This document shows positions 7,540-34,242 of a stretch of 53,327 bases of DNA, one piece after another; the first letter of the stretch is position 1; each line of letters starts with the position of its first letter. A program made the translations under genes and the position numbers. The stretch spans positions 1-53,327 of the forward strand of contig JASJBE010000019.1 in NCBI GenBank assembly GCA_030066655.1, given 5' to 3'. The notes under the pieces are model-generated. The model saw only the letters and a program-made list of their open reading frames with translations. It did no database searches and was not told where the DNA came from. The DNA is from Woeseiaceae bacterium. Lineage in GTDB: Bacteria; Pseudomonadota; Gammaproteobacteria; Steroidobacterales; Woeseiaceae.

Positions 7540-7603
7540 ACAATCATCGTGTAATAAATCCGCCGCCGCGCTGGTCTGATGAGCAAATGAACGGGAATGC
7601 AAA

Positions 7604-9815: not shown

Positions 9816-9887
9816 TCGCGCTGACTGCCGGGAAAACCTAAAGTCCTGTCGGCCGCGGCCGATGGACGATGTATGGGAGTAGAACTG

Positions 9888-11396
9888 ATGGCAGAAACTG
9901 TTGCGGGCGCTCTGAGCGTTCTCGAGTGGCTGGCGACGCTGTTCGTCATCGCCGTCGGCATAGGCGTGCTGGTCGTTATCGCCCTGTACGTTATCGACGT
10001 GACCCAGACGACGCATACGGTCAGGCGGAATTTTCCCGTCATCGGTCGCTTCCGCTACTTTTTCGAGCATCTCGGCGAGTTCTTCCGCCAGTACTTCTTT
10101 GCCGGCGACCGCGAGGAGATGCCGTTCAACCGGGCGCAGCGCTCGTGGGTGTATCGCGCCGCCAAGGGTGTGGACGCAACCATTGCCTTCGGTTCGACGC
10201 TGAACCTGAGCACGACCGGCACGCCCGTGTTCGTCAACTGTGCCTACCCGACACTCGAGGAGGACTCGGTCGATTGCCCGCCGGTCGTCATCGGGCCGAA
10301 CACCCGGCACCCGTATGAAGCCCCGTCTTTCTTCAACATCTCCGGCATGAGCTACGGCGCACTGTCGAAACCCGCCGTGCAGGCACTTTCCCGCGGCGCA
10401 AAGATGTCGAATATGTGGATGAACACCGGCGAGGGCGCGATTTCCGACTGGCACCTCGAAGGCGGCTGCGACATCGTCTACCAGATCGGTACGGCAAAGT
10501 ACGGCGTCCGCGATGACAATGGCGGAATCGACTGGGACAAGCTGAAACAGATCGGCGAGATCGAACAGGTCCGGATGATCGAACTCAAGCTCTCGCAGGG
10601 CGCGAAGCCCGGCAAAGGTGGCATCCTGCCTGGCGAGAAGGTCACCGACGAGATCGCTCGTGTCCGTGGCATCGTCGCGGGCGAGGACTCGATCAGCCCG
10701 AACCGTCATCCGGAGATAAACTCCGCCGAAGACCTGCACGACATGATCAACCGCATCCGAGACGTCTCGGGTCGTCCGACCGGCTTCAAGGCCGTGATCG
10801 GTTCCTATGGCTGGCTCGACGAGTTGTTCAAGCTGATACAGAAACGTGGCATCGACAGCGCCCCGGACTTCATCACGGTCGACAGCGGCGATGGCGGCAC
10901 CGGCGCGGCGCCCATGAGCCTGATGGACAACGTTGGCCTGACCGTCCGCGAGTCGCTGCCGCTGGTCGTCGACAAGTTAAACGAGTACGGGCTGCGTGAT
11001 CGCGTCAAGGTGATCGCGAGCGGCAAGCTGATCAATCCGGCCGACGTGGCCTGGGCGTTGTGCGCCGGCGCAGACTTCGTCAACTGCGCGCGCGGCTTCA
11101 TGTTCGCGCTGGGCTGTATCCAGGCGCTGCAGTGCAACAAGAACACCTGCCCCACCGGCATCACGACCCACGACAAGCGACTGCAGCGGGGGCTCGTGCC
11201 TGAAGACAAGGCCGAGCGCGTACGCAAGTTCTCCGAGACGATGCGCAAGGAGGTCGGCACGATCGCCCACTCCTGCGGCGTCAGCGGACCGCGCCAGCTG
11301 CGTCGCTATCACTGCCGCATCGTGCAGGACGACGGTCGTTCGATTCCGTTTGACCAACTCTACCCAGACGTAACGCCCAGGGTCCGCGCCGCCTGA
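9888..11396 (+). CDS. FMN-binding glutamate synthase family protein
   Basis: Membrane-anchored protein with the FMN-binding barrel of glutamate synthase (Glu_synthase family) but without the glutaminase and C-terminal GltB domains. The 502-residue protein has an N-terminal membrane helix (about 10-40), SGMSYGALSKPAVQALSRGA as the barrel entry, ISPNRHPEI, VDSGDGGTGAAP for FMN phosphate binding, and CIQALQCNKNTCPTGITTHD, which holds the cysteines resembling the [3Fe-4S] site. Such stand-alone proteins are often annotated as glutamate synthase, but their real substrate is not established. I preferred the ATG at 9888 over 9873 because GGGAG lies about nine bases ahead of it. Confidence 0.88.
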   Translation: MAETVAGALSVLEWLATLFVIAVGIGVLVVIALYVIDVTQTTHTVRRNFPVIGRFRYFFEHLGEFFRQYFFAGDREEMPFNRAQRSWVYRAAKGVDATIAFGSTLNLSTTGTPVFVNCAYPTLEEDSVDCPPVVIGPNTRHPYEAPSFFNISGMSYGALSKPAVQALSRGAKMSNMWMNTGEGAISDWHLEGGCDIVYQIGTAKYGVRDDNGGIDWDKLKQIGEIEQVRMIELKLSQGAKPGKGGILPGEKVTDEIARVRGIVAGEDSISPNRHPEINSAEDLHDMINRIRDVSGRPTGFKAVIGSYGWLDELFKLIQKRGIDSAPDFITVDSGDGGTGAAPMSLMDNVGLTVRESLPLVVDKLNEYGLRDRVKVIASGKLINPADVAWALCAGADFVNCARGFMFALGCIQALQCNKNTCPTGITTHDKRLQRGLVPEDKAERVRKFSETMRKEVGTIAHSCGVSGPRQLRRYHCRIVQDDGRSIPFDQLYPDVTPRVRAA

Positions 11397-12623: not shown

Positions 12624-14354
12624 CGGCAGGTAGAGATCGGTCAGCGTGCCTTCGAACGCCTCTGCCGTGAAGCCGACCGTCTCCGACAAGGTCGGATGCG
12701 GATGAATCGTCAATCCCACGTCCGTCGCGTCAGCGCCCATCTCGACAGCGAGGCCGATCTCGGCGATGAGGTCGCCGGCCGTAGGCCCGACCATGGCGCC
12801 GCCCAACACGCGACCCGTGTCAGGATCGAACAGCATCTTCGTGAAGCCCTCGTCACGACCGAGCGCCAGGGCTCGTCCGCTCGCCGCCCACGGGAACTGG
12901 GCCTTCTCGTACTTGATGCCCTTCTCTTTCGCCTCGAGCTCGGTCAGTCCGACCCAGGCCACTTCGGGATCGGTGTAGGCGACGCTCGGTATCGTGCGGG
13001 CATCGAAGTAACTCTTCTCGCCGTGTGCCACCTCGGCGGCGACCTTGGCTTCATGCGTCGCCTTGTGCGCGAGCATCGGCCCGCCTGCGAGATCGCCAAT
13101 CGCGAAAATGTTCGGCACGTTGGTCCGCATCTGCTTGTCCACGGCGATAATGCCGCGCTGATCGACATTGACGCCGGCTTTCTCCGCATCCAGCTTATCG
13201 CCGTTGGCGCGTCGACCGATCGCGACGAGCACCTTGTCGTACACGCCACTCGAAGCACCGTCCTTGCCCTCGAACTGCACCTCGATGCCATCGTCACGAG
13301 CCGTCATTCCGGTGACTTTCGTCGACACCATAATGTTCGAGTAGCGTTTCTTGACGACCTTCAGGAACGGTCGAATCAGGTCCGGGTCCGTGCCCGGCAT
13401 CAGCGAATCCGTCAGCTCGACAACGCTGACTTCAGAACCCAGCGCCGCGTACACGCAGGCCATCTCGAGGCCGATAATGCCGCCGCCGACGACGAGCATG
13501 CGACCAGGCACGGGGTCGATCTGCAGCGCACCGGTCGAGTCGACGATGCGCGGGTCGTCCGGCAGTCCGGGCAGCATGGCCGCCTGCGAACCGGCTGCGA
13601 TAATGCACTGCTTGAAGGCGACGGTCTCACCATTGTCCAGCCGCAGGTGGCTGGCTGACTCGAACTTCGCTGTCGCGGTGATGACGCGCACCTTGCGCCG
13701 CTTGGCCAGCATGTCGATGCCGCCGGTCAGGCGGCCGACGACGCCGGCCTTCCAGTCATTCAGCTTCGACGCATCGATCTCGGGCTGTCCAAAGCTGACG
13801 CCGTGGTCCGCCATATCACGCGCATCGTCGATGAGCTTGGCGGCATGCAGCAAAGCCTTGGACGGAATACAGCCGACGTTGAGACAGACACCACCGAGCG
13901 ACGGGTAGCGCTCGATCATGATGACGTCCATGCCGAGGTCCGCAGCCCGGAACGCCGCGGTGTAGCCGCCGGGGCCCGAGCCGATGACAACGAGTTCGGC
14001 GCTGTGATCGGCGTCGCCTTTAAGCGCGGGCGCTGCCTGAGCGGCCGGGGCCGCTTCGGACGGCGCTGATTCAGCGGCAGGTTCAGCCGCCTCAGGTGTC
14101 TCTTCGACAGCCGCATCGGCGACTTTGGCCGTAGCGACGACGTCGCCCGTCGACACCTTGTCGCCGACGCTGACGTCGACCGACACGATGGTCCCCGCGT
14201 GCGATGCGGGTACGTCCATGGCGGCCTTGTCCGTTTCGAGCGTGACCAGTCCGTCCTCTACTGCAACAGTATCGCCGGGCGAAACCAGTACCTCGATGAC
14301 TTCGACGTCCGCGAAGTCCCCGAGATCGGGAACAGTCAGTTTGATATCAGTCAC
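12612..14354 (-). CDS. lpdA: Dihydrolipoyl dehydrogenase (E3) with N-terminal lipoyl domain
   Basis: E3 component of the pyruvate dehydrogenase complex; it reoxidises dihydrolipoamide with FAD and NAD+. The 580-residue protein is about 110 residues longer than E. coli Lpd because it carries its own lipoyl domain (about 1-78, LVTLETDKAAMDVPA with the lipoylated Lys), then an Ala/Glu/Pro linker. The core shows the FAD motif VIGSGPGGYTAAFRAAD, the redox disulfide in GGVCLNVGCIPSK, the NAD motif VGGGIIGLEMA, and the C-terminal HPHPTLSE with catalytic His and Glu. The GTG start overlaps the last base of the aceF stop. Third gene of the aceE-aceF-lpdA operon. Confidence 0.96.
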   Translation of the reverse strand: MTDIKLTVPDLGDFADVEVIEVLVSPGDTVAVEDGLVTLETDKAAMDVPASHAGTIVSVDVSVGDKVSTGDVVATAKVADAAVEETPEAAEPAAESAPSEAAPAAQAAPALKGDADHSAELVVIGSGPGGYTAAFRAADLGMDVIMIERYPSLGGVCLNVGCIPSKALLHAAKLIDDARDMADHGVSFGQPEIDASKLNDWKAGVVGRLTGGIDMLAKRRKVRVITATAKFESASHLRLDNGETVAFKQCIIAAGSQAAMLPGLPDDPRIVDSTGALQIDPVPGRMLVVGGGIIGLEMACVYAALGSEVSVVELTDSLMPGTDPDLIRPFLKVVKKRYSNIMVSTKVTGMTARDDGIEVQFEGKDGASSGVYDKVLVAIGRRANGDKLDAEKAGVNVDQRGIIAVDKQMRTNVPNIFAIGDLAGGPMLAHKATHEAKVAAEVAHGEKSYFDARTIPSVAYTDPEVAWVGLTELEAKEKGIKYEKAQFPWAASGRALALGRDEGFTKMLFDPDTGRVLGGAMVGPTAGDLIAEIGLAVEMGADATDVGLTIHPHPTLSETVGFTAEAFEGTLTDLYLPKKR

Positions 14355-16063
14355 TATGGGATCGCCTGAAGCAGTTCGTCGACATTGGCTAAACGGGCCG
14401 CGAGCGATGTCGTAAACCTGACCGCGAGAGCGCCGTCGATGACACGATGGTCATAGGACAAGGCATACGGCAGCATCAGCCGAGGCTGGAACTGCTCGCC
14501 GTCCCAAACCGGCTTCATCGTCGAACGGGAAACCCCGAGAATGGCCACCTCGGGCGCGTTGACGATTGGCGTAAACGCGGTCCCGCCGATGCCGCCCAGG
14601 CTCGAGATGGTAAAACACGCGCCCTGCAACTGCGGCGCCTTCAACTTGCCTTCCCGCGCCAGCGCCGACAGCTCGGCCAGTTCGGCCGCGAGCTCGTAGA
14701 CGTCTTTTTTGTCGGCGTCGCGAATGACCGGCACCACGAGACCCTGGTCCGTATCGGCGGCAAATCCAATGTGGCAATACTTCTTCATGACGAGATTTTC
14801 GCCATCCTCTGCCAGCGAGGAGTTGACCTTCGGGTACTCCTTCAGCGTGCTGACACAAGCCTTGATGATGAACGCCAGCGGCGTCAGCGGGATGCCCCGC
14901 TCCTTCGCCGGCCCCTTCAGCAGCTGCCGGCGCTCCTCGAGCGCTGTGATATCGGCCTCGTCGTGCTGAGTGACGTGCGGGATGTTGATCCAGCTCGCCT
15001 GCAGGCGCGGGCCGGAGATCTTCTGGATGCGCGTCAGCGGTTCGAGTTCGATCTCGCCGAACTTCGAGAAGTCGACGCTCGGCGTCTTCGGCAGGGTTGC
15101 GCTACCGACTGGCGCGGCAGACTGGCCGGTCATCACCGACTTGACGAAAGCCTTGACGTCATCGTGCAGGATTCGGCCCTTGGCGCCGCTGCCCTTCACG
15201 CGAACGAGATCGACGCCGAGTTCACGAGCGAGCTTGCGCACAGACGGACTCGCGTGAGAGCGGGCGAAGCCGGCCTCGTCAATGCGAGCCGGGTTGCTGG
15301 CTGAGGCGGGTGCCGCAGCCGGCTCTGGCGCTTTTTCCGGTGCTGGCGGCGCAGGCGGTGCTGTTTCTACACTGGCGGCCGGCGCGGGCGCTGCTTCAGC
15401 TGCAGGCTTCGTCGCCTCTTCTTTCAATGGCGCCGGCGCGGCACCACTGGTCCGGACGACAGCAACGTCGGACCCCGACGAGACCTTGTCACCGACCGAC
15501 ACGAGCAGTTCCTCGATGACGCCGCCGACGCTGGCCGGAACGTCCATCGCCGCCTTATCGGTCTCGAGCGTCACGAGGCCGTCCTCGACGGCAACCTCGT
15601 CGCCCTTTGCGACCAGCACTTCGATGACCTCGACGTCCGAGAAGTCACCAAGATCGGGTACGCGTAGGGTTTCGAGACCGCCGGCGGCGGGCGCCTCACT
15701 CGTGGCCGCGGGTGCCTCCTCTGTCGCGGCCGGCGCTGCCGCGGGCTCCTCCTGCGCGGCCGGCGTTGCCTGGGCCTTGAGCGCCTTGGACGGCGGTGGG
15801 ATCACGACGGTGTCGCCGCCCACATCAATTTCCATCTGCCCGATAACGTCGCCGGACGACACGGTATCGCCGACGGACACGGTCAGTGATTGAAGCGAGC
15901 CGGATTCGGGCGCCGGGACGTCCATCGCCGCCTTGTCGGTCTCCAGCGTGATCAGCCCGTCTTCCTTTGCGATTTCGTCGCCGTCGGAAACGAGGATTTC
16001 GATGACCTCGACGTCTGCGAAGTCGCCGAGATCCGGCACGACTATATCGATCGTTTTTGCCAA
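14354..16063 (-). CDS. aceF: Dihydrolipoyl acetyltransferase (E2) of pyruvate dehydrogenase
   Basis: E2 core of the pyruvate dehydrogenase complex; it transfers acetyl groups from lipoyl-lysine to CoA. The 569-residue protein has two lipoyl domains (about 1-80 and 130-205, both with ETDKAAMDVPA), long Ala/Pro linkers, a peripheral subunit-binding domain (ASPSVRKLARELGVDL, then GAKGRILHDDV) and a C-terminal acyltransferase domain with the catalytic LSYDHRVIDGA. The start codon appears to be TTG (MAKTIDIVV) preceded by GGAGAAGAG. With the extra lipoyl domain on E3, the complex carries three lipoyl domain types. It follows aceE by 12 bases. Confidence 0.96.
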   Translation of the reverse strand: MAKTIDIVVPDLGDFADVEVIEILVSDGDEIAKEDGLITLETDKAAMDVPAPESGSLQSLTVSVGDTVSSGDVIGQMEIDVGGDTVVIPPPSKALKAQATPAAQEEPAAAPAATEEAPAATSEAPAAGGLETLRVPDLGDFSDVEVIEVLVAKGDEVAVEDGLVTLETDKAAMDVPASVGGVIEELLVSVGDKVSSGSDVAVVRTSGAAPAPLKEEATKPAAEAAPAPAASVETAPPAPPAPEKAPEPAAAPASASNPARIDEAGFARSHASPSVRKLARELGVDLVRVKGSGAKGRILHDDVKAFVKSVMTGQSAAPVGSATLPKTPSVDFSKFGEIELEPLTRIQKISGPRLQASWINIPHVTQHDEADITALEERRQLLKGPAKERGIPLTPLAFIIKACVSTLKEYPKVNSSLAEDGENLVMKKYCHIGFAADTDQGLVVPVIRDADKKDVYELAAELAELSALAREGKLKAPQLQGACFTISSLGGIGGTAFTPIVNAPEVAILGVSRSTMKPVWDGEQFQPRLMLPYALSYDHRVIDGALAVRFTTSLAARLANVDELLQAIP

Positions 16064-22577: not shown

Positions 22578-22602
22578 TTGTTTGATCGGAAAAAACGCGA
22601 GG

Positions 22603-22626
22603 AGCCCGGCTTGTCCGGGCTTTTTT
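22603..22626 (+). terminator. Intrinsic terminator placed directly before nadC
   Basis: Arms 22603-22609 (AGCCCGG) and 22615-22621 (CCGGGCT) form a perfect hairpin with a five-base loop, followed by six Ts (22621-22626). The nadC ATG is at 22628. GAGGAG at 22599-22604 sits at the base of the stem. Confidence 0.85.
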
Positions 22627-22627
22627 G

Positions 22628-23482
22628 ATGATGAATGACGAGCTGAAGAAAGAGATCGAGGCAAGCGTTGCCAACGCGCTGAGAGAGGACGTGGGTTCTG
22701 GCGACCTGACGGCGGCGCTGGTCGACGCAGATGCAATCAGTGGGGCAACGGTCGTCGCCCGCGAGTCGATGACACTTGCCGGTATGCACTGGTTCGACGA
22801 GGTCTTCCGCCAGCTGGACGACAGCATCGTCATCGACTGGTATGTCGCCGACGGTGAGCGGGCCGAGGCGGATGACGTGATCTGCAAGCTCGTCGGCAAC
22901 TCCAGGGCGTTGCTGACCGGTGAGCGGACTGCGCTGAACTTCCTGCAGACGCTGTCGGGTACCGCTACGGCGACGGCCCGCTTTGTCGCTGCGATAGAAG
23001 GCACGACGGCGAAGATCCTGGACACGCGGAAGACGCTGCCCGGCTTGCGCCTGGCACAGAAGTACGCCGTTCGCTGCGGTGGCGGCCACAATCATCGCGT
23101 TGGCCTGTACGACGGCATCCTGATTAAGGAGAACCACCTGAAAAGCGCGGGCGGCATTGCCAACGCACTTGCAGCCGCGCAGCGCGCCGATCAGGACGTC
23201 ATGGTCGAGATTGAGGTCGAGTCGCTGGATGAGCTGAAGGCTGCTCTGGACGCGGGAGCCGTTCGCATCCTGCTCGATAACTTCGCTCTCGACGACATTC
23301 GCGAGGCGGTCTCCATCAATGCCGACTATGGTTTCGTCGGCGCCGAGCTCGAGGTATCGGGCAATGTCGACATCGACTCGGTCCGCGAGCTCGCCGAAGC
23401 GGGCGTCGATTACATCTCGATCGGCGCGTTAACGAAGCACGTTCGCGCCGCTGACCTGTCAATGCGATTCAGTATTGGTTAA
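22628..23482 (+). CDS. nadC: Nicotinate-nucleotide pyrophosphorylase (carboxylating)
   Basis: Converts quinolinate and PRPP to nicotinate mononucleotide in de novo NAD synthesis. The 284-residue protein shows the N-terminal REDVGSGDLTAALV, the central LNFLQTLSGTATATARFV, the DTRKTLPGLRLAQKYAVRCGGGHNHR region that binds substrate phosphates, IKENHL, and the C-terminal YISIGALTKH. The start is ATG at 22628 or 22631; both follow immediately after the T-run of a terminator hairpin, with no normally spaced Shine-Dalgarno. The only candidate is GAGGAG at the hairpin base. nadA and nadB are not in the window. Confidence 0.96.
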   Translation: MMNDELKKEIEASVANALREDVGSGDLTAALVDADAISGATVVARESMTLAGMHWFDEVFRQLDDSIVIDWYVADGERAEADDVICKLVGNSRALLTGERTALNFLQTLSGTATATARFVAAIEGTTAKILDTRKTLPGLRLAQKYAVRCGGGHNHRVGLYDGILIKENHLKSAGGIANALAAAQRADQDVMVEIEVESLDELKAALDAGAVRILLDNFALDDIREAVSINADYGFVGAELEVSGNVDIDSVRELAEAGVDYISIGALTKHVRAADLSMRFSIG

Positions 23483-23670
23483 GGCGCCGAGTTCTCTTTC
23501 GAAAACGCAGAAATGCACTGATCGGCGAGGTCCGCCCGTCGACCTGTTGTCAGCGCCCGTTGGTGTACTCACAACCGTTCGTGAATTAATGCTGCCATTC
23601 ATACATGAACGCGTGATCTCTCATCCGCTTGCTCCTACCGTGCGACCTGTAGACCAAACAGGAGGCAGCA

Positions 23671-24477
23671 ATGATGAACACTTCAGATTTTCTTTTGCTT
23701 GTGCTGTTGCTTGCTGGCTGCTCGGCCAGCGCCAACACGCTATTCCCTACACCGTCGGTTCCTGACATCACCAACGGCGATGGCTGGACGATCGGCGTAG
23801 GCGCCGGCTTCGAGTACGAGTCGGAGTATGACGGCTCCGATGACTACGGTGTGGAGGTGGAACCCTCGTTCATAGTCCAAAAGCGGCAAGGGCGGCACAT
23901 GTGGTTTCTCGAAGGCCAGGAACTGGGATGGCGCGGGCGTCTGAATGGCCTTTGGCTGGTTCAGGGCGGGATACGCTTCGAAGGCGGACGAGAAGAATCC
24001 GAGTCACCCCTGCTCGCCGGTCTTGGTGACACTGACGACGAGATCATGGGGATGGCGGAGATTCGCCGTGCCATCGGAGGCAACTGGTCCAACTGGGGCG
24101 CCGCCCGGCTCATGGCCGGAGACAGCGATATCGGATGGCTTGGCGTTCTTGCCGCCGGCCACACCTTCGGCGCCAGCGAGACGGGAACGGGCATCGACCT
24201 GTACGCGTTCGCGACGTTCGCTTCGGACGAGTTCATCAATCGGGATTTCGGCATTACGCAAGAGAAGAGCCTGAGCTCCGGCTTGAGCGTGACAAATCTC
24301 GATGGCGGCTACCGGTCAGTCGGCGTGCAGGCGACCGGCCGGTGGCGGTTCGGCAAACACTGGCAGCTACAGGCAGAGGCCGGTTACGAGAAGTACAACG
24401 GCGATATATCCGACAGCCCGATTGTCCTCGATGATTACGAGGCAGAGGTGGCCGTCAATCTACTCTACAGATTCTGA
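23671..24477 (+). CDS. MipA/OmpV family outer membrane protein
   Basis: Predicted outer-membrane beta-barrel of the MipA/OmpV family (268 residues). It has an N-terminal signal (about 1-22) that contains LLLAGCSASA; it could be cut after ASA by signal peptidase I, or lipidated at the Cys, and I favour the former because family members are barrels. Typical features are GWTIGVGAGFEYESEYDGSD near the mature start, alternating strand patterns, and a C-terminal Phe in VNLLYRF for barrel assembly. The Shine-Dalgarno CAGGAGG is about eight bases before the ATG. The upstream 188-bp gap has no clear promoter. Repeat cluster 1 begins 27 bases after the stop. Confidence 0.85.
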   Translation: MMNTSDFLLLVLLLAGCSASANTLFPTPSVPDITNGDGWTIGVGAGFEYESEYDGSDDYGVEVEPSFIVQKRQGRHMWFLEGQELGWRGRLNGLWLVQGGIRFEGGREESESPLLAGLGDTDDEIMGMAEIRRAIGGNWSNWGAARLMAGDSDIGWLGVLAAGHTFGASETGTGIDLYAFATFASDEFINRDFGITQEKSLSSGLSVTNLDGGYRSVGVQATGRWRFGKHWQLQAEAGYEKYNGDISDSPIVLDDYEAEVAVNLLYRF

Positions 24478-24503
24478 CGTCGCTGCAGGTTATGAGCTAT
24501 TTA

Positions 24504-24665
24504 GGGGTCGAACCGCATTTTCTCGGTCGCATTAAATTCGCGGTCCCAAATTTGGGGTCGAACCGCAACCAATCAACCATTTAAGCGTCGAACCGCATAT
24601 TTTCGGTCGGGGCGGCAGTCGTTTCTGGGTCGAGAAATTCGGTTCGACCCCTTTTTCACGACCCC
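24504..24665. repeat. GGGGTCGAACCG repeat cluster 1
   Basis: Fills the gap between the mipA-like gene and the orphan gene. Forward copies of GGGGTCGAACCG are at 24504-24515 and 24554-24565, and a degenerate one at 24585-24595. Inverted copies are at 24640-24651 (CGGTTCGACCCC), a half copy at 24659-24665, and a worn copy near 24541. The stretch 24585-24651 is a unit with outward inverted ends and an internal GGGGCGGCAGTC (24609-24620); it recurs in cluster 2. Confidence 0.85.
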
Positions 24666-24677
24666 TTTTTCACTTTT

Positions 24678-25136
24678 TCAGGCTATGAGCTCGCGTAGTA
24701 TTGAGACGAACTCCCGCCGCTTCCAGTACAGTTCGGAGTAGATCGCCTTTGTCGGATCATCGTCGGGAGTCGCGTTGTCGAGCCAGTTGGCCGACTTCAT
24801 ATTTTGTTTCGCGATTGTCAGGATCTCTTTAAGCACGGCGACCGCCGAGTCGGCGCGATTGCACTTTCGCGTCAGCAGCCGGTCGATCTCCCGGGCGGCA
24901 TCTGACGACGTTGCGATAGCCTCGCCCGCCGCTTTGGACAGAGGTCGCTTCTCAATGCCGGCGTCGGCCTGGGCCTTGGCCACACGCTCCGGTGTGCTGC
25001 GCTCGAGTTCATCCAGCTCGCGCACGGCGTCGACCAGGGGCTCGAGGTTCAGGCGTTCATCTGCTGTTGCCTTGTCGATAGCAACCTGAATGTGTTCCAG
25101 CCTGATTACGTATCCCGCGGATTCAGCAGCATGCAT
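24678..25136 (-). CDS. Hypothetical protein bracketed by repeat clusters
   Basis: Unrecognised 152-residue protein. It is predicted to be mostly alpha-helical and soluble, with charged heptad-like stretches (LEHIQVAIDKATADERLNLE; AVRELDELERSTPERVAKAQ), one Cys in LLTRKCNRAD, and no signal peptide or membrane segment. I placed the start at the ATG at 25136 (MHAAESAGYVIRLEH). The open frame continues to 25277, but that part simply translates the flanking repeats and is unlikely to be coding. On the minus strand TGCTATAGT (near 25170-25178) looks like an extended -10. Repeat clusters lie on both sides, so it may be cargo of a mobile or recombining unit. Function unknown. Confidence 0.6.
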   Translation of the reverse strand: MHAAESAGYVIRLEHIQVAIDKATADERLNLEPLVDAVRELDELERSTPERVAKAQADAGIEKRPLSKAAGEAIATSSDAAREIDRLLTRKCNRADSAVAVLKEILTIAKQNMKSANWLDNATPDDDPTKAIYSELYWKRREFVSILRELIA

Positions 25137-25183
25137 TTGTTCCAGATTCTCGTTTCCTGTCGCGGTCCGCACTATAGCATTAA

Positions 25184-25347
25184 GGGGTCGAACCGATTTT
25201 TTGGGGCCGAACCGGTTTGTTCGCTCGGGCACTTTCCTGGGGATCGAACCGATTTCTTCGGTTGGGGCGGCAGTCAATTTGCGGTTGAGCTATTCGGTTC
25301 GACCCGTTTTTCCATTTCCCCCGTTTCGAGAAATTCGGTTCGACCCC
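25184..25347. repeat. GGGGTCGAACCG repeat cluster 2
   Basis: Forward copies: 25184-25195, 25203-25214 (GGGGCCGAACCG) and 25241-25251. Inverted copies: 25295-25305 and 25336-25347. The unit 25241-25305 is an imperfect direct duplicate of 24585-24651 in cluster 1, sharing the internal GGGGCGGCAGTC (25264-25275). The downstream part 25322-25356 repeats the end of cluster 1 (CGAGAAATTCGGTTCGACCC). The two clusters bracket the orphan gene. Confidence 0.85.
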
Positions 25348-25382
25348 TTTTTCCACGGGCGGGGGCAATAGAACGTCAGCAA

Positions 25383-25418
25383 TAAAGAAAGGGCGACCGA
25401 CTAGTGTCGGCCGCCCTT
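25383..25418 (-). terminator. Intrinsic terminator of the subtilase gene
   Basis: Arms 25391-25401 and 25406-25416 pair over eleven positions with one G-T wobble around a four-base loop. On the minus strand the hairpin is followed by TTTCTTT. It lies 37 bases past the subtilase stop. Confidence 0.8.
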
Positions 25419-25454
25419 GCTGCTCTTGCTGCTTCTGCTTGCGCGAACAGGGGA

Positions 25455-28034
25455 TCAGTCGTCGTCGTTGAGCTGCATGGACTGACCCGACGCGTTGTAG
25501 AGCGGATCGTAGTCGGTCACGGCATCTGCCCACAAATAGCTGTCTGTCCAGAGGAAGGCGTCCGTCCACAGGAAGCCGTCCGTCCACAGGAAGGCATCGG
25601 TCCAGAGGAAGGCGTCCGTCCACAGGAACGCGTCCGTCCACAGGTAGCCGTCAGTCCACAGGAAGCTGTCAGTCCACAGGAAGGCGTCGGTCCACAGGAA
25701 GCCGGCGCCCCAGCCGTTGCTGGTGTCGGGCGTTGTGTTCGTGTCTGTCGTCTGTGTCGTGTCTGTCGTCTGAGTCGTTTCAGTCACCGGATCGGGCTGA
25801 CCTGACCACAGCACTGCAGTGTCCTGGACCAGGATGACCGGCCCTTCCTCGGAGCGCGCCATGGCGGGCGACGGCGCCGTCTCTGCGACGAAACCGCCCG
25901 CGGCAATCGCTGCCTCGATGTCGAGAACGCCGGCGCCGGCGGCGGTCGGTTCTGCGTCAATGTTGCGTGCCGACGTCATCAGCCTTGCTTTGACTGAACC
26001 CGGGTTCAGCGTCGGGTCCTGCGTCAGCATCAAGGCCGCCGCGCCTGACGCCATGCCGGCTGCCATGCTGGTTCCCGAGATCTCGAGGTACTGCTTCGAA
26101 CAAACAGCACCACAAGCAGGCTCGCGGTCCGGAAGCTCGATACGCATCTTGCCGTTGCTCGGCATAGCCGCGACGATACGGTTGCCCGGCGCGACGAGGT
26201 CCGGCTTCAGGATGTGGTCAATCAGCGTCGGGCCCATCGACGAGAACGTAGACACGAAGTCGTCGCTGAAATCGTTGCCCGTACCCTTGTCGGTCAACGA
26301 ACCAACGGTAAGGACGAGGGGCGAGTTGCCCGGGCTCGTGATCGTCATGTGCCCGTCGCGGCCGTAGTTGCCGGCAGAAGCCACAACGACATAGCCGGCA
26401 TCGACCAGCGCTTCGGCGGCCAGCGCCAGCGGATCGCTGGTCACGCTTTCCTCCACGGCCTTGCCGAGGGACATGTTGACAACGCGGATGCCGTTGGCGG
26501 CGCCGTTGCTCAGGACCCAGTCGAGACCGGCGATGAGGTCCGACGTGACGCCGCTGCCCTGCTCGTCGAGCACGCGCACCGAGTGCAGCGTCGCGCCGGG
26601 CGCGACGCCCTGGTACAGGCCGTCGGACTGTGCGCCGTTGCCGCCAATGATGCCGGCGACGTGCGTACCGTGACCGTAGGGATCGTAAGGGTCGTCACCC
26701 ATGACCTCGACCTGCAGATTGTCGACATACAGGTAACGCGAAAGCTCCTCGGGGAAGTAGCCCTCGACCGAGAAACGCAACGTGACCGGTGCGTCCAGCC
26801 CCAGGTGATTCTCGAGGGGGATGCTCATCGTTTGTTGTGAGCTGTCCCGCGAGTTAAGCACGTGCGTTGCGAGCGTGGCCCACGTCGCTCCGCCGTCGCT
26901 CGACCCTTCCAGCGTTACCGTTACCGAGCCTGACGAGCCGCCGCGGCGACGAAAATCGTACGTCAGTGTCGCGCTTGCGAAGCCCGTGACGTTGAGATCG
27001 CGCGAAACGCCGGTGATACCGAACGATCCTTCGTCATCGTCATCATCGTCGTCACTCTGGATGCCTGTGGCATTGCCAACGTAGCCGCCGTCATCCATAT
27101 TGGCGCCGAGACGAAGGCAGTAGCCGCTCGCGCAGTACGACGAGGAAATGACGCGTGCAAATCCCGACGTGGCGCTGTTCCACTCACCGAAGTCCTGCCA
27201 CGGGCCTGTCCAGTCGAGGTGGCCGTCCGATCCTGAGTAGTTGTAGGTGCGGAATTCGTCGCGATAGGCGCCAAGTCCGGCCGATTCGGCAACCGCGGCG
27301 CACGCGCCGGATGACGCGACGCAGTCCACGCGCGTGGCGACGTTCAGATCAGGATGCTGGCTGACGCCCGAGTCCAGCACGGCGACGCCAATGGACGGGT
27401 CGACGGGGAATGAGTAGCTGGATCCGGTCGCCGGCTGGCGTGCAGTCTGGAGCGACGCAACCGAGGTAGCGCTGACGGGCAGGTCGCGGCTGACAAACTT
27501 GACGTTGTTGTCGATTGCGAGATCGATCAGCGCGGCAGCCGGAAGACGAACCGCCCGCATCTTGAGGCTTGCGTAGCTGCGGACGATCGAACCACCGAGG
27601 CTCTCGATGCGGTCACTTTCGAAGAGCTCAGGGTGTGTCTCATAGCTGACGAGGATCTCGATCTCTTCGTCGCCGCCGGCCGCAGCGATGGAAGCGAGTT
27701 GCGGGCCCATCTTGGCTTGCGCGCGGGACAGGCGTTCCGCCGGCGCAGACTCGGCCGCATTTCCGCCAGCCGACGTCGGAACGACCACGACGTCCGGGAG
27801 TCGTATGATTGAATCCGCAAACGCCCCAGGTGCCGATTCAGCAGCGGACTCGATCGTCGAGCGTTTGGCGTCCGGTACAACGGTGTTCTGATCAGCCGTC
27901 GGCGCGACGTCGACGGTCGTTACGGTGACCGCGTCGTAGGCACTCGTTGCCGTGTCGTCTTTCGCGACTATCAGGCCGATCGAACAGATACCGGTGATGA
28001 TGGCCATCGTGCACAAGGCTGATTTGAACTTCAT
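25455..28034 (-). CDS. Secreted subtilase (S8) with insert domain and FLWTD-repeat tail
   Basis: Serine protease of family S8, exported by an N-terminal signal (about 1-25). The 859-residue protein has an I9-like prodomain (about 120-190), catalytic Asp221 (VAVLDSGVSQHPDL), His455 (GHGTHVAGIIGG), oxyanion Asn556 (SAGN) and Ser656 (SGTSMAAGMASG). Asp and His are 234 residues apart, against a few tens in ordinary subtilisins; residues about 232-450 form an inserted beta-rich domain with a seven-Asp run at 328-334. After a Thr-rich linker (749-773), ten hexapeptides of the form [AGS][FY]LWTD occupy 778-836. I chose the ATG at 28034, which gives a good signal peptide; a GTG at 28070 is possible. 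A perfect CRP-type site lies upstream. Confidence 0.93.
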   Translation of the reverse strand: MKFKSALCTMAIITGICSIGLIVAKDDTATSAYDAVTVTTVDVAPTADQNTVVPDAKRSTIESAAESAPGAFADSIIRLPDVVVVPTSAGGNAAESAPAERLSRAQAKMGPQLASIAAAGGDEEIEILVSYETHPELFESDRIESLGGSIVRSYASLKMRAVRLPAAALIDLAIDNNVKFVSRDLPVSATSVASLQTARQPATGSSYSFPVDPSIGVAVLDSGVSQHPDLNVATRVDCVASSGACAAVAESAGLGAYRDEFRTYNYSGSDGHLDWTGPWQDFGEWNSATSGFARVISSSYCASGYCLRLGANMDDGGYVGNATGIQSDDDDDDDEGSFGITGVSRDLNVTGFASATLTYDFRRRGGSSGSVTVTLEGSSDGGATWATLATHVLNSRDSSQQTMSIPLENHLGLDAPVTLRFSVEGYFPEELSRYLYVDNLQVEVMGDDPYDPYGHGTHVAGIIGGNGAQSDGLYQGVAPGATLHSVRVLDEQGSGVTSDLIAGLDWVLSNGAANGIRVVNMSLGKAVEESVTSDPLALAAEALVDAGYVVVASAGNYGRDGHMTITSPGNSPLVLTVGSLTDKGTGNDFSDDFVSTFSSMGPTLIDHILKPDLVAPGNRIVAAMPSNGKMRIELPDREPACGAVCSKQYLEISGTSMAAGMASGAAALMLTQDPTLNPGSVKARLMTSARNIDAEPTAAGAGVLDIEAAIAAGGFVAETAPSPAMARSEEGPVILVQDTAVLWSGQPDPVTETTQTTDTTQTTDTNTTPDTSNGWGAGFLWTDAFLWTDSFLWTDGYLWTDAFLWTDAFLWTDAFLWTDGFLWTDAFLWTDSYLWADAVTDYDPLYNASGQSMQLNDDD
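25527..25703 (-). repeat. 18-bp tandem repeat encoding the FLWTD tail
   Basis: About ten 18-bp units in frame within the subtilase gene, encoding [AGS][FY]LWTD. Most units read FLWTD; units 4 and 10 have Tyr for Phe, and the last reads YLWAD. Codons differ slightly between units, so the repeat is kept at the protein level. Confidence 0.95.
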
Positions 28035-28123
28035 GGCGCCTGCCCTTTCGAAATGTTGGGGCAATTTCACCAGACGGGACTACTTTTGAGAGTTGCGTGG
28101 CTTGCGCGGTGCCGGCTCACGAG

Positions 28124-28139
28124 TGTGAAGCGCGTCACA
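28124..28139. promoter_or_regulatory. Perfect CRP/Vfr-type operator upstream of the subtilase
   Basis: TGTGA (28124-28128), six bases AGCGCG, and TCACA (28135-28139) match the CRP half-site consensus exactly. The centre is about 97 bases before the subtilase ATG. The nearest gene on the other side ends 200 bp away and reads the same way, so the subtilase is the likely target. Confidence 0.6.
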
Positions 28140-28168
28140 TAATGTCTCGGTTAAATCAGGAAGGGAAA

Positions 28169-28332
28169 GGGGTCGGACCGATTCTTAGCGAACTGGGAAA
28201 GGGGTCGAACCGATTTTTCGAATCAACCGAGGAATACTGCTGATTCGAAAAATCGGTTCGACCCCTAATTGCTAATAGCTAGACCTAGAAAAATCGGTTC
28301 GACCCCTATTTCTGAAAAATCGGTTCGACCCC
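28169..28332. repeat. GGGGTCGAACCG repeat cluster 3 with a perfect palindrome
   Basis: Copies at 28169-28180 (GGGGTCGGACCG), 28201-28212 (forward), 28254-28265, 28295-28306 and 28321-28332 (inverted). The pair 28201-28225 and 28241-28265 is a perfect 25-bp inverted repeat around a 15-base loop. The last copy ends five bases before the stop codon of the GGDEF-EAL gene. The cluster fills most of the 300-bp gap between that gene and the subtilase. Confidence 0.9.
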
Positions 28333-28337
28333 TATTG

Positions 28338-30989
28338 CTAGGCTACAGCGCGGGTCACCCGCTTCGGCTCGGAAACCCCGTACCCTTGCGCATAGTCGAT
28401 GCCCATGCCGCGAAGCATCGTGATGATCTCTTCGTTCTCGGCGAACTCGGCAATGGTCTTCTTGCCGGTCAGGTGACCGATCTCGTTGATCGAGCGCACC
28501 ATCTCGCGGTCGATCGGGTCGTGCAGGATCTCCTTGACGAAGCTGCCGTCGATCTTCAGGAAATCGACCGGGAAGTGCTTCAGGTAACCGAATGAGGACA
28601 GGCCGGTACCGAAGTCGTCCAGTGCGAACAGGCAGCCCAATTCCTTCAGCGCATTGATGAAACGATTCGCCTGCGAATAGCTGGCGATGGCTGCGGTCTC
28701 GGTAATCTCGAAGCAGATCTTGGTCGCGTCGAGCCCGCTCATCTGGAACTGCTCGACAACGAACGGCAGGAACTTTTCGTCGCCGAGACTCTGGCCCGAC
28801 AGGTTGATCGAACACATTGCCAGGCGTTCGCGCTCATCGGCCTCAGACACCAGCCAGCGGAACGCGCTGCGGATGACCCAGCGGTCGATGCTCGGCGTGA
28901 TGCCGTAGCGCTCCGCCGCTTCGATGAACAAGGCCGGAGAGATGACTCCGCCGTTCTCATCGCGCATACGCAACAGGATCTCGTAGTGCGCGCCCTCTTC
29001 CTCAGCCTGCAGCGGCTTGATCGTCTGCCGGTACAGCTCGAAGCGGTTCTCCTCCAGCGCGTTGTTGATGCGGGCCGCCCACTGCAGTTCGCGGCGCCTG
29101 CGCATCAGGTCGATGTCGTTTTCCTGGAAGCTGTGGATACGGTTGCGGCCGGCCTCTTTCGCGGTGGCGCAGGCACTGTCGGCCGCGCTCAACAGCGCGG
29201 CTACGTCTTCATTGTCGGCAGTAATCGGGACCACGCCGATACTGACGCCGAGCCGGAATGTCCGATCGTCCCACAGGAATTTGTAGTCACCGATCGCGAT
29301 ACGCAGCGCCTCGGCGGTCTGCATTGCCTCATCGAGACTGCAGCTCTCCAGCAGCACGCCGAATTCGTCACCGCCGAGACGCGCCAGCGTGTCACGCCAG
29401 CGAATCTTCGATTTGAGTAACGCGCCAAGCTGTCCGAGCAGTGCGTCGCCGGCGCTGTGGCCGCAGGAGTCGTTGACAATCTTGAACTGGTCGAGGTCCA
29501 GGTACAGCAGCGCATAGGACGTCTCGCGCGCCCGGGCGCTCTTCAGCGCACGCTCGAGACGATTTTCAAACTCACGGCGATTGACGAGGCCGGTCAGTAT
29601 GTCGTGACTCGCGTGATAGCTGAGACGACGATTCAACTCGCGGGATTCCGAGACGTCGTGGAAGACGAGCACGCCGCCGGTCACCTGGCCCTTGCCGTCG
29701 CGAATCGGGGACGCCGTGTTTTCGATGTAGAGCTCGTTGCCGTCGCGGCGTATCAGCAGCGTCGGTCGCACCGACTTGATCGCCCGGTCACGACGAATCG
29801 CGACGACCAGTGGGTTTTCAAGCGGCTCGCAGGTCTCCTCGTGGAAGCCGCGGAAGATCTCGTCCAGCGGCCGACCGCTGGCGTCGTCGACCTTCCAGCC
29901 GGTCAACTCCTCGGCGACAGGATTCACGTACTCGACGTTGCCGTCCGCATCCGTCGTGATGACGCCGTCGCCGATGGACTGCAGCGTGATCTGTGCGCTC
30001 TCCTTCTGCCGGAACAGCGCCTCCTCGTACAGCTTGCGCTCCGTGATATCGACTTCGACGCCGAGCAGCCGGATCAGGCGGCCGTTCTTGTCCGTGATCC
30101 CCTTCGCGCGACTGCTCATCCACCGCCATTCGCCGCTGCGATGGCGCATGCGATGCATCGACTCGAAAAACGGCGTCTTCCCCTCGAGGTGCTCACGCAT
30201 CTTGGCCTGCACGCGGGCCATGTCATCGGGGTGCACCAGCGTGTACCAATCGAGCGCAATGTCGTCGTCATCGACGTCATAGCCGAGCATGGTCTTCCAG
30301 CGCGGGGACAGCTCGACGTGCTTGGTCTGGCCGTCAAAGTCCCAGATCCCGTCATTGGCGGTCATGTCAACGAGCTCGCTGCGCTGGTCGATATCGCCCA
30401 GTATCGACCGGTCTTCGAGCAGCTCGAGGCCCGACGCCAGCGACGCACCGATCAGCTTGATCAGCAGGTGGAAGTTCGCGTCCCAACTGTCGGTCGCATG
30501 CTCGTTGCCGAGAGCGAGAAAGCCGCAGATGTTCCCTTTCACCGCGATGCCGATGACCAGCAGCGACCCGAAATGCAGTTCAGCGAGGCGTTCGAACTCC
30601 GCCTGTGCGGCGGTTGGCGCCTCGGTGGAGTTGTCGATCTCGATGACACGCAGGTGCCCAAGTCGATCGGTCAGCCAAGGCCAGTTTGAGAGCGGTTCGC
30701 CGGCGAGCACGTCGCTGGAACATTGAGCGAAGCCGCTGCGGCCCGAGTGGACGGTCTCGATCTTGTCACTGTCATCAGACAGCAGCGCGAGAAAAGCCGC
30801 GTCGCAACCGGCCGCCTCCGGCAGTTCGGCGATGTTCGCCGCCAGCTGTTCGCTCGAATCTTCGAGAGACAGATTCTGGAGATTGACGGCTATCTTGGTT
30901 TGCAGCGCATCGACGGTGCCGCGGGTACGCGTACCAGCGCGAGGTCGTCGCGGTCGGATTCCCGTTTGGTGATCAGTCGAATCGGTCAC
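28338..30989 (-). CDS. GAF-PAS-PAS-GGDEF-EAL cyclic-di-GMP signalling protein
   Basis: Cytoplasmic cyclic-di-GMP enzyme with sensory domains. The 883-residue protein has a GAF domain (about 40-190), PAS/PAC domains (about 205-320 and 330-450), a GGDEF domain (455-610) with intact GGDEF at 539-543, and an EAL domain (625-880). The EAL signature reads EILLR, and the catalytic FALDDFGTG, ICFEITETA and LKIDGSFV motifs are present, so both cyclase and phosphodiesterase activity are possible. No membrane segment is visible. The start appears to be GTG at 30989. It is divergent from the flavin reductase gene. The stop codon abuts repeat cluster 3. Confidence 0.93.
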   Translation of the reverse strand: MTDSTDHQTGIRPRRPRAGTRTRGTVDALQTKIAVNLQNLSLEDSSEQLAANIAELPEAAGCDAAFLALLSDDSDKIETVHSGRSGFAQCSSDVLAGEPLSNWPWLTDRLGHLRVIEIDNSTEAPTAAQAEFERLAELHFGSLLVIGIAVKGNICGFLALGNEHATDSWDANFHLLIKLIGASLASGLELLEDRSILGDIDQRSELVDMTANDGIWDFDGQTKHVELSPRWKTMLGYDVDDDDIALDWYTLVHPDDMARVQAKMREHLEGKTPFFESMHRMRHRSGEWRWMSSRAKGITDKNGRLIRLLGVEVDITERKLYEEALFRQKESAQITLQSIGDGVITTDADGNVEYVNPVAEELTGWKVDDASGRPLDEIFRGFHEETCEPLENPLVVAIRRDRAIKSVRPTLLIRRDGNELYIENTASPIRDGKGQVTGGVLVFHDVSESRELNRRLSYHASHDILTGLVNRREFENRLERALKSARARETSYALLYLDLDQFKIVNDSCGHSAGDALLGQLGALLKSKIRWRDTLARLGGDEFGVLLESCSLDEAMQTAEALRIAIGDYKFLWDDRTFRLGVSIGVVPITADNEDVAALLSAADSACATAKEAGRNRIHSFQENDIDLMRRRRELQWAARINNALEENRFELYRQTIKPLQAEEEGAHYEILLRMRDENGGVISPALFIEAAERYGITPSIDRWVIRSAFRWLVSEADERERLAMCSINLSGQSLGDEKFLPFVVEQFQMSGLDATKICFEITETAAIASYSQANRFINALKELGCLFALDDFGTGLSSFGYLKHFPVDFLKIDGSFVKEILHDPIDREMVRSINEIGHLTGKKTIAEFAENEEIITMLRGMGIDYAQGYGVSEPKRVTRAVA

Positions 30990-31722: not shown

Positions 31723-34242
31723 CTAGTTGAAGTCCTTGCGGAACGTGACGCCCCACGTCCGCGGCTCCAGCGGGTAGGCATTCTGCTTACCGTCCTGGAT
31801 GGGCACGTCAAACACCGTCTCGTAAAAGTTCTCGTCGGTCAGGTTGCGTACCCAGATGGCAAGCTGCGCATTCCAGGCATCGAAGTCCATACCGGCACGC
31901 AGGTTGACGAAGTCAAACGACGGACGGAGCTTCAACGGGTCGTTGTTGCCGTCGGTCATCGTGTCCGAGTAATGAATGTACTCGAGCTTCGTGAACATGC
32001 CGGTCGTCGAACTTAGCTCAAAGTAGCGTTCCAGCCCGAGGTAGAACGAATGTTCCGGGTTGGACGGTACACGTCCGCCGCTGCGGTCGCAGACCGGGAT
32101 GGCCGGATCGGTCTGACCCGGGTCCGGGACACCAGTCTGGAACGGTGTAGCTACCCAGCACGTGCCGTTCTCGAAGTTCTCGAAGTCAGCCGTGTTGTAG
32201 GCATAAGACATCTGGACATCCCAATCGACGGTCGGCTTCCACCAGGCTTCGATCTCGATTCCCTGGGTGTCAGCATCACCGGCGTTCTGCAGGTTAAAGC
32301 CGTTGCCCGAGAAGGCGCTGGTCTGTAGGTCTTCTACCTGCGTGTCGTGGACGGCCACGTTGACGATCATCCTGGCGTCCGGAATCTCCGTCTTCAGGCC
32401 GATCTCGATCGCGGTCGACGTCTCAGCCTGGAAGATCTGGTTGAAGAACGGATCGATACGGTCCGTGTTGGTGCCGCCGGACTTGTAGCCCGTGCCGTAG
32501 GACACGTACCACATCGTGATGTCGCTCGGCATGTAGGACAGCTTGATCGTGCCGGTCACCTGGTCGTCGTCCAGAATATCGACGCCGCTGGCCTGCGGTG
32601 CCAGCGCCGGCTGCAGGTAGAAACCCCAGCTCGGCACGTAGAACGGCCCGAACGCGCCGAGAATCGTCGGCTGGTTGGCCGGGTCGGTCGGATCCAGCGC
32701 ACCCGGTGCTGCCGGGTCGGCCTGCCAGATGCCGATGCCGGTCAGCACACCAAGGGCTGCCACAACATCGGGGGCGGGACCCAGTGGACTGTTAAGGAAG
32801 GTGGAGTTCAGTGTCTTCTCTTCGTCCGTGTAGCGAGCGCCCGCCGTCAGGATCCAGTTATCGCCAAGGGCGAAGTCGGCCTGCGCGAATACCGCATAGC
32901 TCTCGTGTTCCTGCCGCATGTCGTCCGTTGCGAAGGAACCGTCCGGGAAGGAGTCAGCAACCAGCGGCAACGCACCGGCAGTCGCCGCGCTGACCGCATT
33001 GATGCCGTCAATCAGGTCTGTCAGCGGGATGTTGAGTACCGCGCTGGTGTTGGCGAGGCCGGTCAACGTTGAAACGTTGTCCAGGTCCTGCTGGAAGTAG
33101 TAAGCGCCGACGACGTAGTTGTTGCCTTCACCGAACGTGCCGTCGAGACGAAACTCCTGCGAGAACGAGCTCTGCTCGGAGAGGTTTTCGTCGGTCAGGA
33201 TCTGCGCGGCGCTGAAGTCGGCGTCGATCACGTCGGTGCTGTCGAAAGAGCGCGCGGCGCTGATCGACGTGAATCTCGCATTCTCGAATTGGTAATTCAG
33301 TTCGAGTGACACGCCGGAATCCTCATTGGTCGAACGCGGCAGGCTGTTCAGCGCCATGACGTTGTCTTCGAAGCGATCCGCCGTGACGACGGGCACGCCA
33401 AGACCGAACTGCAACAGGGCGTCAGAACCCGGGTTACCCTCGAAGTCCTGGAAGTTATTCAGGCGCGTTACGGCGGCACAGCAGACTTCATCGATTTCAG
33501 CCGTATCCCAGATCAGGCGCGCCGTCAGGTCGTCGTTGGGCGTCCACAGGAACTGCACTCGGCCACCGATGCGATCGCGATCGTTGATCAGATCGTCGCC
33601 GATGCCGATCACATCCACATAGCCATCGCGCTGGCCCGAGAAACCCGTAACGCGCATGGCCAGAACTTTGTCGATCAGCGAGAAATTCATCGCTGCCGAA
33701 ATATTCGCGAGCCCCAGGTTTCCGGCTGTCGCCTCGAAGAATCCGTCCTGCTCGTGATCCGGAGTGACGGTCCGAATGTTCAACGCGCCTGACGGCGTGT
33801 TCTTACCGAAAAGCGTGCCCTGCGGGCCTCGCAGTACCTCAACGGCCTCGATATCAACGAGGTTGTTGATGATAGCGCTCTGCCGCGATCGATAGACGCC
33901 GTCGATGTAGATACCGACGGACGACTCGAGGCCGAAGTTCTGCGCACTGGTGCCGATGCCACGAATCGAGAAGCTCGACGTCGTCGAGTTCTGGCTCTGG
34001 CTGGAAACCAGTGACGGCGAGATCGTCGCGAGATCACGCATGTCTTTGATGGCAGAATCCTGCAGGATCTGGGCGCTGTAAGCCGTCACCGCAATAGGAA
34101 CTTCCTGCAGGGGCTGCTCGCGCTTCTGAGACGTGACGACGATCTCTTCGAAGATATCGTCCTGTGCGACCGCAACGGTGAATGGTGCGGCCACGGCTGC
34201 GGCAAGCAGCACACTCGCACAACGGCGGATGGTCTGTTTCAT
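31723..34242 (-). CDS. TonB-dependent receptor
   Basis: Outer-membrane, energy-dependent importer. The 839-residue protein has a signal peptide (about 1-26), a TonB-box-like EEIVVTSQKREQPLQEVP, a plug domain with SIRGIGTSAQNFGLE and VEVLRGPQGTLFGKNTPSGAL, and a 22-strand barrel ending in Phe-Asn (VTFRKDFN), close to the usual aromatic end. The family cannot tell the substrate; the sequence resembles the broad group of CirA/FecA-like receptors common in marine Gammaproteobacteria. I chose the ATG at 34242 because it starts the signal peptide and follows GAAGGGGG; the frame is open to 34494 without a signal. The neighbouring TPR lipoprotein may work with it. Confidence 0.94.
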   Translation of the reverse strand: MKQTIRRCASVLLAAAVAAPFTVAVAQDDIFEEIVVTSQKREQPLQEVPIAVTAYSAQILQDSAIKDMRDLATISPSLVSSQSQNSTTSSFSIRGIGTSAQNFGLESSVGIYIDGVYRSRQSAIINNLVDIEAVEVLRGPQGTLFGKNTPSGALNIRTVTPDHEQDGFFEATAGNLGLANISAAMNFSLIDKVLAMRVTGFSGQRDGYVDVIGIGDDLINDRDRIGGRVQFLWTPNDDLTARLIWDTAEIDEVCCAAVTRLNNFQDFEGNPGSDALLQFGLGVPVVTADRFEDNVMALNSLPRSTNEDSGVSLELNYQFENARFTSISAARSFDSTDVIDADFSAAQILTDENLSEQSSFSQEFRLDGTFGEGNNYVVGAYYFQQDLDNVSTLTGLANTSAVLNIPLTDLIDGINAVSAATAGALPLVADSFPDGSFATDDMRQEHESYAVFAQADFALGDNWILTAGARYTDEEKTLNSTFLNSPLGPAPDVVAALGVLTGIGIWQADPAAPGALDPTDPANQPTILGAFGPFYVPSWGFYLQPALAPQASGVDILDDDQVTGTIKLSYMPSDITMWYVSYGTGYKSGGTNTDRIDPFFNQIFQAETSTAIEIGLKTEIPDARMIVNVAVHDTQVEDLQTSAFSGNGFNLQNAGDADTQGIEIEAWWKPTVDWDVQMSYAYNTADFENFENGTCWVATPFQTGVPDPGQTDPAIPVCDRSGGRVPSNPEHSFYLGLERYFELSSTTGMFTKLEYIHYSDTMTDGNNDPLKLRPSFDFVNLRAGMDFDAWNAQLAIWVRNLTDENFYETVFDVPIQDGKQNAYPLEPRTWGVTFRKDFN

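Follow-up and report, generated by a model that had tools for sequence, protein, structure and literature searches.

A GGGG-ended palindromic repeat family and a RAYT-like Y1 transposase gene with the same ends in a Woeseiaceae genome

REPINs are reportedly treated by Bertels and Rainey (2011). Classical REP sequences with a RAYT are described as intergenic inverted doublets that are capable of forming hairpins and are tied to a Y1 transposase gene, and the Escherichia coli TnpA-REP protein is reported to process single-stranded REP in vitro (PMC8266576). The TIRtron, or TIRYT, is a RAYT-like Y1 gene with long flanking inverted repeats, which often carry a GGGG-type motif and some of which are dispersed families that occur as dimers and clusters (PMC3733652). 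The motif GGGGWSAS is given there as common to some, not all, of the terminal inverted repeats and as non-defining (PMC3733652). TnpA-Y1 subclass 2.1, which comprises long proteins with a C-terminal extension, has been suggested to correspond to TIRYT, and REP-like sequences near its genes were reported absent in that description (PMC6006769). The terms TIRYT and TIRtron are sparse in the literature searched, and the papers drawn on here pose as a matter for later work whether these transposases recognise and spread their flanking repeats.

The anatomy described here is that of a TIRtron plus its non-autonomous repeat family. We assign a probability of about 0.85 to the reading that three repeat clusters of the window (the whole stretch of DNA that was analysed, 53,327 nt, contig C36 of the home assembly) consist of palindromic terminal-inverted-repeat elements (REPIN- or MITE-like) that are non-autonomous and descend from a TIRtron with a RAYT-like Y1 transposase encoded on contig C142. 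This reading draws on the match of the cluster ends to the ends of the transposase gene, the covariation of ends and enzyme, the dispersed units in genome G054, their absence in genome G044, and the positions of the clusters, each of which is directly observed. As in TIRtrons, there is a Y1 protein with an HUH motif and a putative catalytic tyrosine, the flanking inverted repeats are not of GTAG type, and, as in some TIRtrons, they occur elsewhere as dimers and clusters (68 copies, 24 mixed clusters); unlike the GGGGWSAS of some TIRtrons, the motif is GGGGTCGA, with G for A at position 7. The intergenic, hairpin-capable inverted doublets and their association with a Y1 transposase gene are shared with REPIN/RAYT systems. 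Unlike classical REP/RAYT systems, base counts at the 68 exact sites show no GTAG (GT[AG]G) tag at the hairpin foot, and base pairing with the partner extends over the entire end. The literature searched contains no report of the exact end GGGGTCGAACCG.

Repeat clusters of the window and the genome-wide family

With up to one mismatch, the tolerance applied to copy counts unless stated otherwise, GGGGTCGAACCG occurs 13 times in the window, always inside three gaps between genes, whereas shuffled windows average 0.56 copies and never exceed 3. With two mismatches there are 22 copies against 9.8 expected, and the additional ones are 24584 in cluster 1 and eight scattered copies. An earlier note on this DNA had reported about 15 copies in three clusters and nowhere else in the window. 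The clusters that it named stand; because a single further in-cluster copy (24584) appears at two mismatches, the number is 13 to 14 instead, and the restriction to the clusters holds at up to one mismatch and is lost to the scattered copies at two.

The left-edge syntenic anchor of the locus is a nadC-like gene (22625-23482, plus strand) with QRPTase domains. Cluster 1 (24504-24665; like the others, assigned to no strand) occupies the gap that separates a MipA-like gene from an orphan gene and has three copies at up to one mismatch (24504>, 24554>, and 24640<, with > for forward and < for inverted half-sites), which span 24504-24651, plus 24584> at two. The orphan gene (24678-25190, minus strand, start not fixed) lies between clusters 1 and 2; at E 0.001 it matched nothing in Pfam or NCBIfam, and it has homologs in 2 of the 60 same-genus genomes searched. 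Cluster 2 (25184-25347), in the gap between the orphan gene and a subtilase gene, has five copies (25184>, 25203>, 25240>, 25295<, and 25336<) and is 81% similar to part of cluster 1 across 70 bp, interior included. The subtilase gene (Peptidase_S8; 25455-28070, minus strand), whose best match in G044 sits on a different contig, separates it from cluster 3 (28169-28332), which likewise has five copies (28169>, 28201>, 28254<, 28295<, and 28321<) and fills the gap to a GGDEF-EAL gene (28338-30989, minus strand), the right-edge syntenic anchor. Between the end of the last copy of cluster 3 (28332) and the GGDEF-EAL stop codon (28338-28340) there are 5 bp, just as had been noticed before. Inside the subtilase gene, positions 25542-25701 hold an 18-bp tandem array with 8.9 copies of GTCCGTCCACAGGAAGGC. 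When the bracketed genes were examined for a defence role, PADLOC models matched, among 10 proteins, the subtilase alone, via its protease domain.

In all three clusters forward copies stand before inverted ones without exception, a stricter order than the earlier note had given when it described copies in both orientations forming palindromic units, which they do. The GGGG half-sites point outward, so that pairs can fold into hairpins. A near-perfect hairpin is found at 28200-28266 in cluster 3, where the unit 28197-28270 has a predicted single-stranded DNA fold of -31 kcal/mol (z -10.2; none of 200 shuffles equally good). The folds of 24550-24656 in cluster 1 and 25236-25352 in cluster 2 both have a z of -2.5, with 3 of 200 shuffles equally good in each case.

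The home assembly (3.61 Mb, 167 contigs, 91% complete) contains 68 exact copies of GGGGTCGAACCG, 34 per direction, against 1 for a reversed control pattern, so the genome-wide count that had been proposed as a check finds many copies elsewhere. Clusters lie on C36, C142, C148, C121, C103, C128, and C1, and on C137 too if one-mismatch sites count; C72, C100, and C6 have lone exact copies. In the stretches read, sites with at most one mismatch form 40 groups (11 singletons, 5 one-direction, and 24 mixed), and the GGGG ends face outward in 24 of the 24 mixed groups, for which the product of chances is about 10^-12.5 if clusters are taken as independent. The 68 exact copies give the half-site consensus aaaGGGGTCGAACCGAwTT; position -1 is A in 93% of them and position +15 is T in 87%, and past about +17 they have little in common. 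The spacers between inner half-sites range from 13 to 85 bp. Among 24 units, spacers are more alike within than between contigs (0 of 5000 permutations), a pattern that local duplication would leave too. Over about 14 kb of C142 almost all gene gaps carry repeats. The previous suggestion of a REP- or MITE-like family is supported as regards non-autonomous palindromic elements, the kind being that of the GGGG-ended TIRtron rather than the classical GTAG REP.

At positions 8028-8269 of locus L005, six forward half-sites at 46-bp spacing are followed by one inverted half-site, a head-to-tail amplification of one end. On C148, a DUF2891 gene (L005 11146-12324) is flanked by >> and <<< without inner partners and is a candidate gene-carrying element.

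The transposase gene, its ends, and the dispersal of units

Two Y1_Tnp matches above the Pfam cut-off are present in the home genome, on C142 and C105, and none falls inside the window, in line with the earlier report of a window without a transposase; C121 has a third, weak match to the C142 transposase (33.8 bits). A RAYT (Y1) or other transposase gene flanked by the same ends as the clusters had been predicted, and a RAYT-like one was found on another contig of the same genome, at C142:8391-9110. Its surrounding sites are 8279> and 8312> on one side and 9079>, 9120>, 9179<, and 9213< on the other, of which 9079> overlaps the 3' end of the gene. The flanking inverted repeat is 16 bp long (AAAGGGGTCGAACCGA) and unrelated to the GTAG REP. 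Unlike IS200/IS605 elements, in which the gene is multicopy, a single Y1 gene with GGGGTCGAACCG ends occurs in this 91% complete assembly, the C105 gene having other ends. That second RAYT-like gene (L002, about 1388-2210) has its own flanking repeat, GGGGACATTCTGCTTTTT.

The C142 protein contains the HUH motif NHVH, the sequence RYIELNPVRA, whose tyrosine we take to be the putative catalytic one, and a GRP tail (Y1_Tnp E 5.9e-15). Against NCBIfam NF047646 (REP-associated tyrosine transposase) it scored 77.7 bits (E 7.9e-22), below the cut-off of 80. A profile of its family matched, among solved chains, 4er8 (E. coli RAYT) best and the ISDra2 transposase second, and the predicted model of an 80% identical homolog (pLDDT 86.7) has a fold matching 4er8 and then the ISDra2 and IS608 transposases. 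The C terminus of that model has predicted helices at 167-176, 184-195, and 203-213; no C-terminal Pfam domain was found for the transposase, and a Pfam search for a C-terminal HTH at E 5 gave no match in nine family members. The locus of this homolog (L046, from a Gammaproteobacteria MAG) is identical across 3716 bases to L017, a locus from a genome labelled as being of the same genus, which places the host in the Gammaproteobacteria.

A contig scan with the single C142 transposase sequence found no relative; from an alignment-based scan the best 80 loci among the matches listed were kept. The loci with a match numbered 111, and 109 of them had enough flank. A flanking inverted repeat with a score of at least 13 was found at 81 of these 109 loci among the matches listed, which include one duplicate (L017 = L046), against 13 of 150 mismatched pairs, a control that also contains pairs with related ends. 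The remaining 28 of the 109 listed loci had no repeat above the threshold. The 81 loci differ in this respect from what PMC6006769 describes for the genes of subclass 2.1. Across the 81 of 109 listed loci that score at least 13, transposase identity and repeat similarity were correlated (Mantel r 0.649, 0 of 2000 permutations; r 0.646 once two pairs with at least 90% identity were dropped), in statistics that ignore tree kinship. Mean end similarity rose from 0.22 under 30% protein identity to 0.88 over 70% in the same 81 listed loci. GGGGWSAS fits 46 of these 81 repeats, and GGGGTCGAACCG occurs in five, that is, four distinct loci and one duplicate. The GGGGTCGAACCG-ended loci (L016, L017/L046, L018, and L047) have transposases at least 63% identical, and homologs that are 58 to 60% identical have other ends (GGGGTCAGACC in L019, mixed in L020 and L021), which argues for a narrow cognate set.

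GGGGTCGAACCG is present in 55 of the 99 relatives searched, G000 included. The six genomes with a homolog of at least 57% identity have 68, 6, 5, 1, 94, and 7 exact copies, against a median of 1 in the other 93 (Mann-Whitney p 0.0006). Seven of those 93 (G024, G009, G037, G002, G090, G075, and G077) have 12 to 37 exact copies without a close homolog and are orphan repeat families; such high copy numbers suggest that copies outlive or outrun the enzyme, or that the enzyme is absent from draft assemblies. G044, 99% complete, has seven exact copies, and its sole transposase relative is partial and 33% identical.

Dispersal of whole units is seen in a relative, G054, which has 94 exact copies. In an alignment of 10 of its 17 close-pair loci, picked by eye from 20 stretches, seven units, spread over contigs C1, C9, C14, C17, and C21, have one 73-74-bp sequence in common that includes the interior; by eye, their flanks are unrelated past the first few A-rich bases. 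Together with the covariation over the 81 listed loci, these dispersed units make recognition directly testable with matched pairs of enzyme and end.

The site of the window clusters was compared with G044, the closest relative found as judged by the GGDEF-EAL gene (97% identity, against 85% for the next full-length match; G003, G009, and G037 have partial matches of 93-95%). G044 lacks all three clusters. Within 22601-29000 its homology covers 22601-23478 and 24678-25115 and then resumes from 28338 onward, restarting at most about 30 bp away from the cluster 1 and cluster 3 edges; in G044 nadC is followed by the orphan gene and then by the GGDEF-EAL gene, while the MipA-like gene and the subtilase are missing from the locus. 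The accessory segment that had been described as colonised by repeats does hold the clusters, with the correction that it has inserted genes too. Relatives at this locus comprised 16 of the 60 same-genus genomes searched, mostly from the top of the match list, and the 15 that hold the 3' side of the GGDEF-EAL gene have zero sites there at up to one mismatch. The clusters are thus absent in 15 of 16 relatives in the comparison of empty sites that had been suggested; the contig of the 16th, G022, breaks off inside the GGDEF-EAL gene, and a single site is present some 0.8 kb upstream of that gene. In G007, G038, G053, G049, and G003 the ends of nadC and the GGDEF-EAL gene are at most 50 bp apart. 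Two further clusters, C148:35135-35218 and C103:12250-12440, are absent in G044 with both neighbours conserved, at insertion points that are inexact, the spacers being too diverged.

The unit consists of aaaGGGGTCGAACCGAwTT, a variable spacer, and the inverse of the first sequence, and in the mechanism that we propose this outward-facing pair would fold into a hairpin when single-stranded. By analogy with E. coli TnpA-REP, the C142 transposase would bind the hairpin, cut at its foot, and paste the unit elsewhere, probably often nearby. New units would persist mainly just 3' of stop codons and in junctions already gaining or losing genes, presumably by tolerance rather than function, and later units would nest or stack at the junctions so occupied.

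Cluster positions, gene order, and alternative readings

The median distance from a cluster edge is 9 bp to a stop codon and 78.5 bp to a start codon (p 0.001), and certain clusters run into the 3' end of a called gene. Among convergent junctions clusters occupy 6 of 59, among tandem ones 14 of 161, and among divergent ones 3 of 56, the genes being called as the longest non-overlapping open frames of at least 100 codons, some of them false. The proximity to stop codons would also be expected if, whatever moved them, the palindromes were kept for a role in cis as bidirectional terminators, mRNA 3'-end protection, or protein-binding arrays. Several palindromes fold strongly, and, because GGGG is preceded by A-rich bases, CCCC at the other end is followed by a T-rich tail. 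Nevertheless, we regard such a role as unlikely, since a simple terminator scan of 24000-29000 (loops of 3 to 8 only) gave 5 sites versus 4.2 in shuffles, no excess, spacers differ between loci, and the equivalent G044 junctions are without palindromes.

Gene order relative to G044 is broken at 15 of 17 assessable junctions with clusters and at 41 of 208 others (Fisher 1.6e-8), in a comparison of five home contigs (327 kb) chosen for carrying clusters with only the fetched G044 stretches, in which single-site groups were left out, 51 of 276 junctions (7 of them with clusters) were unassessable, and a break was scored when a neighbour was unmatched in the fetched stretches, though possibly present elsewhere in G044. 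When cluster labels were rotated per contig, with clumping kept, the observed share was reached in 7 of 20,000 rotations. Gene-call cut-offs of 80 and 120 codons gave broken/unbroken counts of 15/2 at cluster junctions versus 45/171 and 37/158, respectively, at the others. This link suggests that the repeats mark, and possibly cause, hotspots in the genomes of these gammaproteobacteria.

The breaks are also what would be seen if outward end pairs were movable boundaries, such that a gene between a left > and a right < is carried and shuffled among palindrome-marked sites. Six C142 blocks (1-1817, 6251-8292, 9290-9687, 9838-10468, 13728-14953, and 15056-15885) recur on C20 of G044 with their order changed and in one orientation, as fork-linked single-strand transfer or chance would leave them, and palindromes (in G044 at up to two mismatches) are found at most block edges in both genomes. 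The palindromes of G044 C20 are its own, intergenic, with the same ends at up to two mismatches and different spacers; all six paired sites (up to one mismatch) in the G044 stretches lie in the non-collinear part of C20. On C121, a 4.1-kb palindrome-punctuated stretch of genes corresponds to about 4 kb of other DNA in G044; relatives of two genes of this C121 stretch (66% and 62% identity) lie on other contigs of G044. The subtilase segment bears outward ends at both limits, with its right edge 6 bp from the resumed G044 homology and its left edge 69 bp from where that homology stops, and the DUF2891 gene of C148 and the C142 transposase gene itself also lie between such ends. Against this, blocks on C148 have been reordered even though paired palindromes are missing from the G044 stretch, only one side of the MipA-like insertion carries a cluster, two clusters (on C148 and C103) stand alone between conserved neighbours, and no dispersed gene-carrying copy was seen.

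Moreover, the GTAG-type REP, a different family, favours breaks as well, which speaks for hotspots: 6 of its 8 assessable junctions were broken (397 of 20,000 rotations), counted with an 11-base pattern at one mismatch by which at least four sites stand alone, perhaps by chance. Settling of repeats in tolerant variable junctions is therefore likelier than shuffling by repeats, and we put it ahead of repeats causing the breaks. Carriage of genes between outward ends is accordingly improbable in our view, and there is an equally small chance that TIRtron ends both mark and help make the junctions where genes are gained, lost, and reordered between close species. If they did, the outcome would be integron-like by way of a single-strand Y1 transposase, and ordinary chromosomal genes would be movable single-gene modules. 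In the TIRtron account of PMC3733652 we encountered neither the polarity rule nor the covariation of ends with transposases nor a link to synteny breaks, and its main text yielded no mention of synteny, rearrangement, or hotspots.

An integron-like or CRISPR-like array, which the repeats in nearly all gene gaps of the C142 stretch might call to mind, has next to no probability: the units are symmetric and of variable length, a Y1 transposase lies inside the array, genes run in both directions, and among 30 proteins scanned near clusters those matched by Pfam are ordinary enzymes, transporters, and receptors, so the integron-like reading was dropped on unit structure and gene content.

A repeat of about 45 bp beside clusters had been considered as a recombination site and was dropped, as it reads as a GTAG-type REPIN. 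REPINs of this type (GTAGGAGCGGCTTCCAGCCGCGATCGCGGCAAGATGCCGCTCCTAC) are located at C142:10537-10585, 13582-13629 (L003), and 34075-34121 (L004), at C121:63790-63840, and at C103:12469-12502. They occur in four junctions that also hold GGGGTC clusters, a weak co-occurrence (1420 of 20,000 rotations).
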